This document shows, piece by piece, positions 17,732-32,945 of a stretch of DNA of 36,185 nucleotides. The position numbers and the translations under genes are program-made. The notes under the pieces were generated by a model. It was not told where the DNA came from. It ran no database searches and saw only the letters and a program-made list of their open reading frames with translations. The first letter of the stretch is position 1. Each line of letters starts with the position of its first letter. This DNA comes from a bacterium (lineage in GTDB: Bacteria; Patescibacteriota; Gracilibacteria; Absconditabacterales; Absconditicoccaceae): contig JAHDGZ010000012.1 of assembly GCA_020631605.1 (NCBI GenBank), positions 1 to 36,185 on the forward strand, written 5' to 3'.

Positions 17732-18055
17732 ATGTCAGAAGTTTGTAACATGTCTCAGAAAAGATCATGAGGTGAAAGTCCTATGTTTAAGTTATTTGAA
17801 CTACTAGGCAAAAAACGAATTATCAATATAGCGTATGCTATCAGTCAGGGTTTTTCTTGATTTAACGAGATTAAAGATTCGATACCATTTTTGAGTAGTA
17901 AAATTCTTTCTAGTAGACTTAAACTTCTTCAACAAGAAGGACTTATTGTTAGAGAGATAGAGAATGAAACACCCGTGAAGATAAGATACTATTTAACGAA
18001 TCTATGAGAAAGAGTTGCGGAGAAAGTATGTGAAATGTGAAAGATTGTTTGATAA
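17732..18055 (+). CDS. HxlR-family winged-helix transcriptional regulator (107 aa)
   Basis: MSEVCNMSQKRSGGESPMFKLFELLGKKRIINIAYAISQGFSGFNEIKDSIPFLSSKILSSRLKLLQQEGLIVREIENETPVKIRYYLTNLGERV. Confidence 0.9.
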
Positions 18056-18125
18056 AACATAGACATGAAATTGTTGCTTCAGTTTTTTTATGTTACAAAA
18101 AAAACACCGAAAGGCAGTTGTATAT

Positions 18126-18372
18126 TGGTGAAGGTGATGAGAATCAAACCTCATAGTTAATTTTTTTTCGATAAGAAAAAAGGAGTCGAACCTTATACGA
18201 TTGACTCCCGCTTTGACGGGAGTTGAGACCGGCATATACGCCGTATGTGCTAATGAATATGTTCCATTAATACATACTGGGTATATAATCAAGTTCAACT
18301 CCCATCAATAAGTGTAATAATCATCAGCCAGCTCACGGGTGTGGCGGTCAGATGGAGATGGATCTCACCTTG
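18126..18372 (-). ncRNA. candidate structured RNA with tRNA-like, CCA-containing 3' end (tmRNA-like?)
   Basis: Minus strand ends TATGAGGTTTGATTCTCATCACCTTCACCA (ATGAG/CTCAT arm), then a short hairpin and a T run. AAGGTG about 245 nt upstream can pair with CACCTT. Several internal hairpins. No canonical tmRNA 5' motif or tag found. Confidence 0.35.
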
Positions 18373-18548
18373 GTGGTGGTGATGCGTTTTATTATGATGT
18401 AAGGAGAATGCTCGCTACATCTACAATCAGCAATCACTAAAGTAAAGACCTAATAGTAGTAGACATGTCCGAGACATATCAATGTAATAATCAGCAATCT
18501 AGGTTTGGTAATCTCTGGTAATCTATTCTAAGCAATTTTGTCACGGGT

Positions 18549-18620
18549 ATGCTATGCTAATCAATGCTAGGTATTCTATTCTAATCTATTCTATTCAAAT
18601 CTATGCTATGCTATTCAAAC
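18549..18620. repeat. degenerate pentanucleotide (CTATG/CTATT) repeat tract
   Basis: tgctatgctaatcaatgctaggtattctattctaatctattctattcaaatctatgctatgctattcaaac. Confidence 0.6.
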
Positions 18621-18767
18621 AAGTGTTTTGTTGTGTATTCCTTTTGTTTGATGATGAGCTTATATCATTCTCGAATACTAAATCTAGTGTGTAGACCAAA
18701 AAGAGCCTAACATTGAGTTAGCCCTATTCAGCTTTTTGTATGTATCTGTTGTTTACAATTTTCTTAT

Positions 18768-20339
18768 TTAGTTCACAATAATTTCTAGTGAGATACGGTT
18801 TGAGCTTTGTGGTTCAGTCATCTCAGATCTCAGGTTGATGACCTTCGAAAACGGTGAACTAAATCTTTCCGAACGTGAAATATCTCCAGAAATGTTTTGT
18901 ATATCTCGATTGTATGGAAGATGTATCGTTGATTGGTTTGCTCGATAGAGATTATCGTAGGTAGGTCAGAGTCAGAGAATACCTAGTTCTCTCTCGGTCA
19001 TCGTTACCTGATTCTGATCAGCGAGCTGTTTCATATATCTGTGATAGCTTTGATCAATATTGAGATGGTAGTATATATGTATGGTATATGCGCCTTTGTC
19101 CAGATCAGCGTGTGAGATGATATCTTTGTTGAACTCATGTGTGACTACCTTTCCATCACGGTAGATGATGACTTCTTTGTCTACAAATCTATCTATCTTG
19201 TTGAACGCATGATTGGTATCCCAGATATAGAAGTAGTCCGGATTGTAGAGTGTGGTTAACTGGTTCTTTTCAATGACTTGCTTGAGTCATGGGCTAGCAT
19301 TGGGTAAATAGATGTTCAATAGACGATTGTCCTTGATGGTTTCAAAGTTTCTCACCATATTGGCTATCAGAGAGATGCTATTGTTGCTAAAATATTCGTT
19401 TACTTCATCCAAGTAGATCTCTTTTTTGTGACTACGATCTTCTCCCCTGATGAGATCGATGTTGGCATTGATAAACTGTCGCTTTTGCAACAGAGGAGTG
19501 ATCTGTGGACTAGATTGTTCAAACATCTCTGTATTGAGAAAAAGGATTCCATCTATCTTTTTTCCTACCAATGTTTTTTCTAGGTCACTATATTCTGATT
19601 CTTGGAACTTTTTTTTGTCGTAGGTCTGATTGAAAATCACTTCATAGAGTTGTTTAATCGTAGCTCCATCCAGATCAGTAAAACCAAACTTGTTGCTCGC
19701 AATAAATCTGATCGTATCTTCATCGAGCATAGGCAACGCCCACTTGGGTGCTTCAACACTTGTCTCTGGTGCGAGAAAATCAGGTAAATAACTATCTACT
19801 ACTCCTAGCTGTTGGATAAATCCATGACGTACATTGGCAAATGCAAATGATCCAAAAAATCATCCGTTAGGTCTTTTTTCTCCAGCATTTTGGAGTATAG
19901 CAAGATAGTTTCTATCGTCATGCTTCCCCAGAAGTGCGTAGATCTCTTGCTTGTGTGGGTAGAGATCAGTCAACAACTGAAAGAATGATTCATAATGACT
20001 AAATCACCACTTGGAGAGGTTCCTGGTGTTGGATACTGCGTAGGTTCGTGCATCATCTATTACCTGTGGATTTTCTACGAAGATGTTGTTGTTGTTTTGG
20101 TAGCTGCTGATGATAGTATCTAGATTTCTGATGAACTGTGACAATCATTCATCTACTGCATGCGCTTGGTTTGCGATGAGTTGAAGATCGTCGTTGGCTA
20201 TATCTATAGATTGTTGTTGGACAAATATTCTTTGGACAGTCTCATATGCACTGAAGAGAAAAAAACTAATCAGAATGATAAGAAAAAATGCAATTGCACT
20301 TCGCCAGTAAGTAATTTTGTGTTCGGTATATTTTCTCAT
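18768..20339 (-). CDS. DUF4012-like membrane-anchored protein (523 aa)
   Basis: N-terminal TM (RSAIAFFLIILISFFLFSAY); NYLAILQNAGEKRPNGGFFGSFAFANVRHG, characteristic of DUF4012; frame continuous through TGA. Confidence 0.8.
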
Positions 20340-26962: not shown

Positions 26963-28501
26963 ATGTTTGATAGAAGACACGATGCAGATACAGATATCTT
27001 GCTTATCTGATGATGAATCATGAGCGCTACTCTTTGAGTTTTTTTGCACCTCTTGGAGCCCGATTTGAAGATAGATGTGTTTGAGCGTAGAGATGCATTG
27101 GGCTATGAAAGCTCAGATACATTGAACAACGCATGAACATGACATTCAGCTTTGTGTGAGTTGCATTATACTCCTTATAAGGATGGTTCTATTGATACGA
27201 GCAAAGCAGATGCCATTGTAGAAAAATTTGAAATATCAAAACAGTTTCGATCTTACTTGGTAGAGCACAACTTTTTCCCGAAGTGAAATGAATTTATCAA
27301 CTGGGTTCCCCATATGAGCATCGTCTTTTGAGAAGATGATGTACAATTTCTTCGTGACCGCTATAACACGATGACGCAGAATCCACTGTTCAAAGATATG
27401 ATGTATTCGGAGGATTTTGAGCAACTCAAAGAGCGATTTCCACTGATCATGGATGGACGTAGTAAAGATGAAATAATAGCAGCAACGCGTCATGAGATGG
27501 GGACCGACATGAACTTCTGAATGCTTACGAGAAATATGTTTGATCATCTGAACAATGGAGAGAATGTCCATATCCATCATCATCAAGAGGTTGTAGATTT
27601 GCAACAACTGGATAATGGAACATGGAAAGTGTTTGTGAGAAATTCTTGAGTAGTAGGGAACAAAATTTCTACCAAAATTGCACGTTATGTGTTCTTGGGT
27701 AATGGTTGAATGGCAATACCATTGCTAGCAAAATCATGAGTTCCAGCAGGAAGAAACTATGCCTGATTTCCTGTGGATGGTCAGTGGTTGATCTGTAATA
27801 ATCCAAAAACTATTGCCCAGCACCATGGTAAAGTCTATGGGAAGGCTGCAGTATGAGCTCCACCTATGTCAGTACCTCATTTGGATACTCGTATTGTCAA
27901 CTGAAGAAAATCACTGCTTTTTGGTCCCTATGCTGGTTTTACGACTAAGTTTCTTAAACAATGAAGTGTTCGAGATTTTTTTAGATCACTGCGTTGGGAT
28001 TCTCTACTCCCTTTGATCAGAGTATGAATCAAAAATTTGTCTCTCACCATGTACTTGTTCAAACAATGATTTCAGTCTAATGATGACCGTTTGGCTGCAT
28101 TAAGATCGTATTATCCAAATGCTAACCCTGATGATCGATACTGTGCATATGCTGGTAAAAGAGTGCAAATCATTAAGAAAAACCCAGAGACATGACTGGG
28201 AGAACTGCAATTTTGAACTGAAGTTGTAGTCAGTGATGATAATTCTTTATCAGCTTTGCTTTGAGCTTCACCAGGAGCTTCAACTTCTGTTTCGATCATT
28301 CTCGAACTCTTGGAAAAGTCTTTCCCTGAACAGATGAAGACCTCAAAACGACAAAAACTCATTCAAAAGATTGTTCCTTCATACGGTACTTCTTTGAAAG
28401 ATAATGATGAGCTAGTAGCTCAACTTCGTTCACATACACATACAGTTTTGTGACTTTCAAAGGATTCCTTTGAGGAAAAAATTAGTGGTTTCTATGAGTA
28501 A
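26963..28501 (+). CDS. mqo: malate:quinone oxidoreductase (512 aa)
   Basis: [83 protein letters not shown]...[50 protein letters not shown]. Confidence 0.95.
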
Positions 28502-30546: not shown

Positions 30547-30664
30547 GCCTTTGTGCTATCGAAAATTCCTGCTACTATACCTCTGTAACTTGTCTAACTA
30601 CAAATGATAAGTGGTGCTACTAGAGAATACACGATGTTTTACTTCTGTGCAAGAATACGATCCT

Positions 30665-31456
30665 ATGAGTAAGCAAACAATAGATACAAGCTTGGTAAGA
30701 GAGAAGATACTTGCATTTTATGAAGATATCAAAGCATTATCTACTCTGATGCCTGATGAAGCAACATCAAAAGTGTTTAGTAATTTATGTCATTTTGTTC
30801 AAACCACAAATTATAGCTGATCACTACCTGATCAAGAATCCCACTATATAAGGGAAGCAGCAGCGCAGGCAGAAACTTTTATGGAAGTAGAGACGACTGA
30901 AAAGATCTTGATCGCAAAAGACAAACGGAAACAGTTAGAATCGTTCATATACTATCAGAACTACTCTGATCTGACGGAGATGGAGTATGCTACGATACAA
31001 CTACTACAAAAAGATAGTAAGAAAATCCTCTTTATAGGATGATGACCTCTTCCTCTGACAGCAATTATCTTAGCAAAGAGTTATGGTTGTCATGTAACAG
31101 TTATTGATAGAGACGAGATAGCGGTACGCTTATCACAGAAACTGGTACAGAGTCTTTGACTGGAAGACTTGATCACTATCGTACAACAAGATGTCATGGA
31201 TTTCACGTCTGATGCTTCTTTTGACTGTACTGTTGTTGCATCTTTACTGTTTGGGAATGGACAAGAGAATGACATCTTATCGCAGATTAAAACCATACCA
31301 TCATCATGTTATCTTCTGAGAAGTGCTGATTGATTGAAAAGATTGTTATATGCAGGGATCAGTGAAACCATGCTGTCAGATCATTTCTCACTCAAGTACG
31401 TCATCCATCCTCACAATCATATTATCAACTCTCTTGTTTTAGCTACCTGACTCTAA
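30665..31456 (+). CDS. nicotianamine-synthase-like protein (263 aa)
   Basis: ILAFYEDIKALSTLMPDEATSKVFSNLCHFV; IYYQNYSDLTEMEYATIQLL; KKILFIGGGPLPLTAIILAKSYGCHVTVIDRDEIAVRLSQKLV; CYLLRSADGLKRLLYAGI; VIHPHNHIINSLVLA. Closely follows the plant/archaeal NAS pattern (FVGSGPLPLTSIVLA; HPTDEVINSVVVA). Confidence 0.85.
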
Positions 31457-31463
31457 AAGCATA

Positions 31464-32945
31464 ATGAATGCTCCCGATTCCACCACAGCGATCTTAGTAC
31501 TAGGATTTTTGTGAACAGGAAAAACTACTCTGATTGAGGCATTGTCTGCTGAACTTACGAGACAAGAAAAGCCAGTGACTATCATCATCAATGATAGTGG
31601 TCTTATCAACACGGATGCCCTTCGTCTTGCTGATTATGAAACTACAGCAATCACCAACTCATGTATTTGTTGTAGTAGTATCGATGATCTTGAACTAGCC
31701 CTACTTAAAGCCAAAGACACTGGAAAGACTATTATCATAGAGCCTACAGGGATAGCAGATGGTACTGCATTGTCCAATCTTCTTAGAAAACACAGAATAC
31801 AATGAAAAACTGTTAGCTTGACAACATGAGCTGATCTCCCACATGAGACGTCTAATAACATACAAGACATACAACTGGACCTGGCACATGTGATAGGAAT
31901 CACTCATTGATGAAGCCAGGAGACGAAGATATGATTGGAAGAAAAATACTCCGAGACTCCCGTATTTCTCATTCCTGATATATCCAAAGCCCTTGAAAAT
32001 GTGATTCTTGCTGATGAGGATCCAAATGTGTTTCAGAGTATATTAGCATACCCACATCAAGAATTTAAAGAATGATGAATACCAGAGAAGCATGAGCGTT
32101 TCCCTAATACAAGTATCTCCTCACAAGATGTTGATTGCTTGTTTACTACCCAATGACTAGAAGCAATTATTGATCAGCTTGGTCCCAACCTGCAACGTGC
32201 AAAAGGTGTCATAGGATGAAGAGCATTCGATGTCACTTGTTCTACATGATTTATCCAAGTGATTCGATGAAAATCTAGTGATCAGGAAGATTTCCTTACG
32301 GTAATTGTTAAGAATCCTTTAGAAAATAATTCATTAAAACAAATGTGTATAGATTGTTTGAACGAGCATCAAGATAGCACCAATAGCTTTGGCAATACAA
32401 TAGTGCCCAGAGAATGGAAGCTTTCTTCTGAAGAGATACAGCAACAGACTAATAAACTCCTAGAGCAATATACCGAGTATATGGCTCTGGATCAGAGATA
32501 TAATGAACTCGAGAAAACGTATGAAACAAATAAAGATCTGCCTATAGCTCAGAAGATGACAGAACTCAAAGCTGAGATGCAAGCATTGTGAGACGATATG
32601 AAATATAATAATCCGTTTATCTGGCTTGATTATAAGCTCAAAGCATATGCGCATCTACCTGAGAAGAAAGTCACAACTATCGCAGAACTCAGAAAACACT
32701 GTGAACGTGAGACGTATATCTGTCATAAGAGACTCGATTATCTGAATAAAGTGCTTAAGGAAAAGTACGCTATTGATTTACAAGATGACGACAGCGTTGC
32801 ACCTGACACTTCGCTAGCAGAACTATTAGAAAAATCTTCTATTATTGATCTTTCTCATGATGAGTCATTTATGAAAGAACGATTAGCTTACGAGTATTTT
32901 TCTCTCAATGGTGGTACAAACAAGCGAGAAAATTATGTAAAGTAA
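31464..32945 (+). CDS. COG0523/CobW-type G3E GTPase with long C-terminal extension (493 aa)
   Basis: TTAILVLGFLGTGKTTLIEAL (P-loop Gly encoded by TGA); ITNSCICCSSIDDLELAL (CxCC motif); IIIEPTGIADGTAL; C-terminal CobW-like region then a charged, coiled-coil-like extension. Confidence 0.88.

Follow-up and report, generated by a model that had tools for sequence, protein, structure and literature searches.

Does the minus strand of an unusually long gap between two convergent genes encode a structured RNA, and is such an RNA related to tmRNA or tRNA? The question arises at positions 18126 to 18372 of the window, that is, the whole stretch of DNA analyzed here (36,185 nucleotides), and the window corresponds to the complete contig C26 of a MAG. 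The original prediction had described this element as a candidate structured minus-strand RNA without convincing coding, with a suggestion of alternative folding and a resemblance to a divergent tmRNA or tRNA-like transcript ending in CCA. The MAG comprises 1.1 Mb, is 87% complete, and reads UGA as glycine; code 25 alone opens long frames in it, and a tRNA-Gly(UCA) gene was found. The nearest relatives of one flanking gene are SR1/Absconditabacteria records, the complete RAAC1_SR1_1 among them. According to gene calls under code 25, the element is located inside a convergent intergenic region of 712 nt, as compared to a median of 28.5 nt for convergent gaps in this genome. The following features define this setting.

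18056..18767, no strand assigned: convergent intergenic region holding the element (code-25 gene calls)
17732..18055, plus strand: flanking gene for an HxlR-type helix-turn-helix regulator (Pfam PF01638, E 1.1e-17)
18768..20339, minus strand: weakly DUF4012-like flanking gene, upstream on the strand of the candidate RNA (family conservation, ~38% identity)
18453..18482, minus strand: TTGATA-18-TACTAT, a sigma-70-like promoter match at chance level

The promoter search returned three sigma-70-like matches against 4.6 expected, and none stood above chance. A 17-nt repeat (TATGCTATGCTAATCAA) occurs in five iteron-like copies, spaced by 10 to 29 nt, at 18519-18618, directly upstream of the candidate RNA and on its strand. 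Elsewhere in the window, a protein of the nicotianamine-synthase family (PF03059, E 1e-31) is encoded beside a CobW-type GTPase at 30611-32945; such a pair for handling metals is unusual in a genome so reduced. A malate:quinone oxidoreductase is encoded nearby at 26963-28501.

Fold predictions single out the minus strand. Over 296 nt, its fold reached -90.2 kcal/mol, as compared to -60.1 ± 4.4 kcal/mol for shuffled sequences (z = -6.9). Among 548 intergenic 150-nt windows taken from 394 kb, about a third of the host genome, the minus strand of the element ranked first (z = -7.66), whereas its plus strand reached -4.67; the element is the strongest intergenic fold within a third of one Absconditabacteria (SR1) genome. 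The minimum-energy fold contains two hairpins, H1 (18308-18213) and H2 (18209-18181), the second of which is followed by a U tract.

18213..18308, minus strand: main hairpin H1, 96 nt, 41 pairs, -43.9 kcal/mol (folding)
18181..18209, minus strand: hairpin H2 (regions 3 and 4), terminator stem, -13.0 kcal/mol, containing the "T-loop" TTCGACT
18176..18181, minus strand: U6 tract directly 3' of H2, putative 3' end of the RNA (sequence and terminator calibration)

H1 is the second strongest local fold (up to 110 nt) across the 394 kb, the strongest being located inside a coding repeat. Both hairpins are weaker on the plus strand, where H1 amounts to -36.4 and H2 to -10.0 kcal/mol and where 33 pairs form, as compared to 41 on the minus strand, 5 of them G-U. 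The minus strand folds more strongly because its G-U pairs turn into A-C on the plus strand, and the retention of these pairs favors the view that an RNA may be read from the minus strand. The claim of a structured RNA is thus supported by the z-scores and by the genome-wide rank. Two other folded intergenic stretches of this genome are recorded here: (i) L160:6018-6404 (minus strand), the second most structured intergenic window of the sample (z = -6.5), lies directly upstream of a gene for a 1303-aa, probably secreted, S-layer-like protein and appears to be a structured leader, and (ii) L143:15837-16358 (plus strand; z = -5.35) ends in a very strong terminator-like hairpin (-22.8 kcal/mol) located 632 nt from any same-strand stop, has no Rfam match, and is a second candidate for an orphan RNA.

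H2 has the sequence GGGAGTCAATC-GTATAA-GGTTCGACTCC; its 3' arm is the T-loop-like AAGG-TTCGACT-CCTT, and six U come next. We calibrated this arrangement on the genome and found 80 hairpin-plus-T sites of the same type. Gaps make up about a tenth of the sequence, yet 47 of these 80 sites are intergenic, and 30 of the 47 are located within 300 nt after a same-strand stop. With a stable stem, a direct U tract, and a type that is enriched after genes, H2+U6 is very probably an intrinsic (Rho-independent) terminator. The terminator tract is present on the minus strand only, and the nearest same-strand stop, that of the DUF4012-like gene, is 558 nt away. A further hairpin lies close to this stop.

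18696..18725, minus strand: probable terminator of the DUF4012-like gene, GGGCUAAC-UCAAU-GUUAGGCUC and then U5, -13.4 kcal/mol

This terminator-like hairpin probably separates the DUF4012-like gene from the RNA unit. Since H2+U6 is far from any same-strand stop and the upstream gene is already followed by a terminator-like hairpin, an independent RNA with its end near 18176 is the natural reading.

The element consists of five degenerate copies of one ~16-nt motif, with a consensus near GGTTCAACTCCCATCA. Two copies are inverted (18308-18291 and 18209-18201) and three are direct (18226-18213, 18193-18181, and 18151-18135). Two of the copies form the arms of H1.

18291..18308, minus strand: region 1, inverted motif copy with three possible partners
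18213..18226, minus strand: region 2, direct motif copy and 3' arm of H1 (folding, helix comparison)

Because the arms are copies of one motif, region 1 may pair with 18226-18213 (14 bp), 18193-18181 (13 bp), or 18151-18135 (17 bp). None of 300 shuffles reached the length of the longest or of the second-longest of these helices. The 14-bp helix contains one G-U pair and includes the 9-bp pairing GGGAGTTGA/TCAACTCCC; the alternative folding proposed originally is supported by the three competing helices. Region 2 in turn has region 3 as an alternative partner (ACTCCCGT/GCGGGAGT). This pairing would break the terminator, and the whole alternative fold containing it lies 5.6 kcal/mol above the minimum. 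The helices named in the original prediction (GTATGT/ACATAC, TAATG/CATTA, CGGC/GCCG, ACTCCCG/CGGGAGT, and AAGG-TTCGACT-CCTT) are all present in the minus-strand sequence, but ACTCCCG/CGGGAGT and the AAGG/CCTT T-loop are absent from the minimum-energy fold, and forcing them costs 5.6 to 5.8 kcal/mol. The inverted and direct copies of the motif therefore explain why T-loop-like sequences recur and why several of the helices exclude one another.

We found no homologue of the element, either by DNA search in 192 relatives or with a covariance model in 147 relatives and at 22 further loci carrying the flanking gene. The DNA search gave short matches of 17 to 48 nt (best E 7e-4 over 192 genomes), which were treated as chance; the covariance model was sensitive to weak matches, as the antisense palindrome scored 34.5 bits. 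At most of the 22 loci the gap after the flanking gene is far shorter than 712 nt, the gene neighborhood around the element is not conserved in the relatives, and no similar element was found downstream of the HxlR gene where synteny was followed through its counterpart in relative G034 (72%). The element is thus a single sequence and offers no covariation across relatives, which had been proposed as a check; the case for an RNA is made by the strength of the fold, its bias toward one strand, and the terminator. To the tools applied here, the small RNAs of Absconditabacteria (SR1, UGA = glycine) are nearly uncharted territory.

A number of other identities were considered and rejected. (i) The genome has an ordinary RNase P RNA elsewhere (C13, 126.5 bits). 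(ii) The element has neither an RF00169 match nor the helix-8 motif of SRP RNA. This bacterial small SRP RNA model found nothing elsewhere in the host genome either, and it matched 0 of 59 genomes (the host genome and 58 same-class relatives, near-complete ones included), yet 11 to 12 of 14 controls; it is a small-type model. (iii) The arms of the palindrome read GTTGA ... TCAAC, an orientation opposite to that of an integron attC site (5' RYYYAAC ... GTTRRRY 3'). (iv) No protein family match was obtained for the open reading frame at 18002-18298 or for the other small frames, and there is no coding signal, in agreement with the original statement that coding is not convincing. (v) A mobile copy was sought as well; the genome holds no second copy, and phage and plasmid collections gave nothing convincing (a single phage match of 34 nt, E 0.2, and no viral contig with an exact 23-nt piece of the element). 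(vi) A tRNA with a long intron was not found by ARAGORN with introns of up to 500 nt at default settings, and matches at score thresholds of 30 to 50% were spurious. (vii) As for a tRNA that the genome is missing, 34 different tRNAs were read out, His being absent, but completeness of the genome stands at 87%, and the element does not fit a cloverleaf. The rRNA genes of this genome (L152:17404-20000 and L153:1-2258; G000:C28) are arranged on one strand in the order 23S, 5S, 16S, as compared to 16S, 23S, 5S.

The following features bear on the resemblance to tmRNA.

18137..18154, minus strand: T-arm-like hairpin ATGAG-GTTTGATT-CTCAT with an 8-nt loop, located beyond the terminator and representing the third direct motif copy
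18126..18136, minus strand: CACCTTC-A-CCA, acceptor-like 3' end, ~50 nt beyond the terminator
18366..18371, minus strand: AAGGTG, possible 5' acceptor partner with a C1-C72 mismatch and A3-U70

The sequence features noted originally were confirmed, namely, ATGAG/CTCAT before CACCTTC-A-CCA, the AAGGTG/CACCTT pair, and the T8 run after the CCA (18103-18096), which follows a weak stem of -2.7 kcal/mol. A second and divergent tmRNA or some other tRNA-like RNA, ending in an encoded CCA at 18126, would explain why GGTTTGATTCTCATCACCTTCA shares 19 of 22 positions with the 3' end of the genome's own tmRNA, in the correct register and with the unusual CACCUUC included, a match that 12 of 500 shuffles equaled in score. 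It would also account for a rare arrangement, namely, a perfect T-stem closing a T-loop-like loop, N8, CCA, and an acceptor partner of at least 6 bp; over 787 kb of strand, the only other occurrences were at tRNA genes or their antisense. However, the genome has an ordinary tmRNA elsewhere (C39:164-546, 78.9 bits with RF00023; UGA is read in frame on this contig as well), and tmRNA is present in most relatives. At the element, Rfam gave no match across 1.2 kb even at E<=10, tmRNA RF00023 and tRNA RF00005 included; ARAGORN found neither tRNA nor tmRNA at default settings and made only spurious tmRNA calls with relaxed scores. The 5' motif of tmRNA (GGAUUCGA-type D-loop region) and the tag reading frame are absent from the sequence, as had been stated at the outset. 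In the best acceptor partner, CAAGGUG, C1-C72 is a mismatch and A3-U70 replaces the alanine-specifying G3-U70. The T-arm, A73, and CCA do exist in the sequence, but they lie ~50 nt beyond the strong terminator. In the free fold, the T-stem has a probability of only 0.13 to 0.24, and no closed tRNA-like domain forms there. We thus consider this identity, proposed originally, very unlikely; the tRNA/tmRNA look is very probably that of a short motif repeated in both directions and not of a real tRNA-like molecule. As this case shows, a TTCGA loop-like sequence in a terminator arm, together with inverted copies of it, can be mistaken for a tRNA- or tmRNA-like end. A 144-nt tmRNA-like match (42.4 bits) was seen in relative G034 (L163:1451-1594; G034:C1:145950-146093, minus strand), with the 3' T-arm, acceptor, and CCA intact and most of the middle missing; it represents either a reduced tmRNA or what is left of one close to a contig end.

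Two further explanations were weighed. The locus may be a non-transcribed DNA palindrome and not an RNA gene, either a decayed mobile element or nested inverted duplications of the ~16-nt motif within an unconstrained gap. The degenerate inverted and direct copies, the unusual length of the gap, the adjoining iteron-like repeats, and the lack of a conserved neighborhood or homologue next to short gaps in relatives would all suit such an origin. It would not by itself account for the strand bias of the fold and the G-U pairs retained on the minus strand, nor for a terminator tract restricted to that strand, and neither another copy in the genome nor an adjoining transposase or phage gene was found; we regard it as somewhat doubtful. 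We judge it unlikely that the DUF4012-like gene instead has a long 3' untranslated region to which the element belongs and in which tandem terminators stop read-through ahead of the convergent HxlR gene. The shared strand, the distance downstream of the stop, and the quality of H2+U6 as a terminator agree with this account, but a terminator-like hairpin is already present ~45 to 70 nt after the stop, and in relatives of the gene the gap is short and lacks an element of this kind.

The most likely explanation, which we put forward tentatively, is a stand-alone, orphan structured RNA of ~145 to 270 nt that would be read from the minus strand and end at an intrinsic terminator. From the computed structure, strand bias, terminator-like site, and competing helices, we infer that transcription would start inside the 712-nt region and that the transcript would fold into the 96-nt H1 and then into H2, with U6 as its end. 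Region 1 could pair with region 2, with the 3' arm of the terminator, or with the stretch beyond it, and the layout of 1:2 plus 3:4 versus a terminator-breaking 2:3 is attenuator-like. The most likely action would be that of a small regulatory RNA with leaky termination, the longer transcript being antisense to the convergent HxlR gene. Switching between the folds is a possibility, but it would need an outside factor, since the stability of the 1:2 helix greatly exceeds that of 2:3. A more elaborate version, in which five T-arm-like motif copies and a three-partner arm set the choice between a stop at 18176 and read-through antisense to HxlR, possibly with a tmRNA-like CCA on the long form, appears quite improbable. 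A His-rich open frame (LHHNKTHHHHQGEIHLHL) at 18330-18400 on the minus strand recalls a his leader peptide; CATCACCACCACCAA encodes HHHHQ, but the in-frame TAG is followed by no ATG, GTG, or TTG ahead of the His codons. The frame (CATCACCACCAC) thus lacks a start codon and lends no support to a leader-peptide mechanism, and a histidine-leader attenuator was rejected.

Comparison with known systems places the element as follows. Its 3' end recalls tmRNA (RF00023), from which it differs in its missing 5' motif, tag, and Rfam score, in A3-U70, in its position beyond a terminator, and in the normal tmRNA encoded elsewhere. Bacterial Y RNA (YrlA) has a long stem and a tRNA-like look, as does the element, but no TROVE/Ro/Rsr (PF05731) gene was found in the 87%-complete genome and there is no Rfam match, so that this class was rejected. 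With trp- and his-type attenuators it shares the four-region layout in which 1:2 and 3:4 (terminator) are opposed to 2:3; it differs from them in the much greater stability of 1:2, in the absence of a leader peptide with a start codon or other sensing element, and in its surroundings, as the next feature is the convergent, antisense HxlR gene and not a regulated downstream gene on the same strand. With neither an above-chance promoter nor conservation, the candidate RNA differs from orphan intergenic small RNAs with intrinsic terminators, but it resembles them in being a stand-alone folded unit whose terminator is located far from a same-strand stop.
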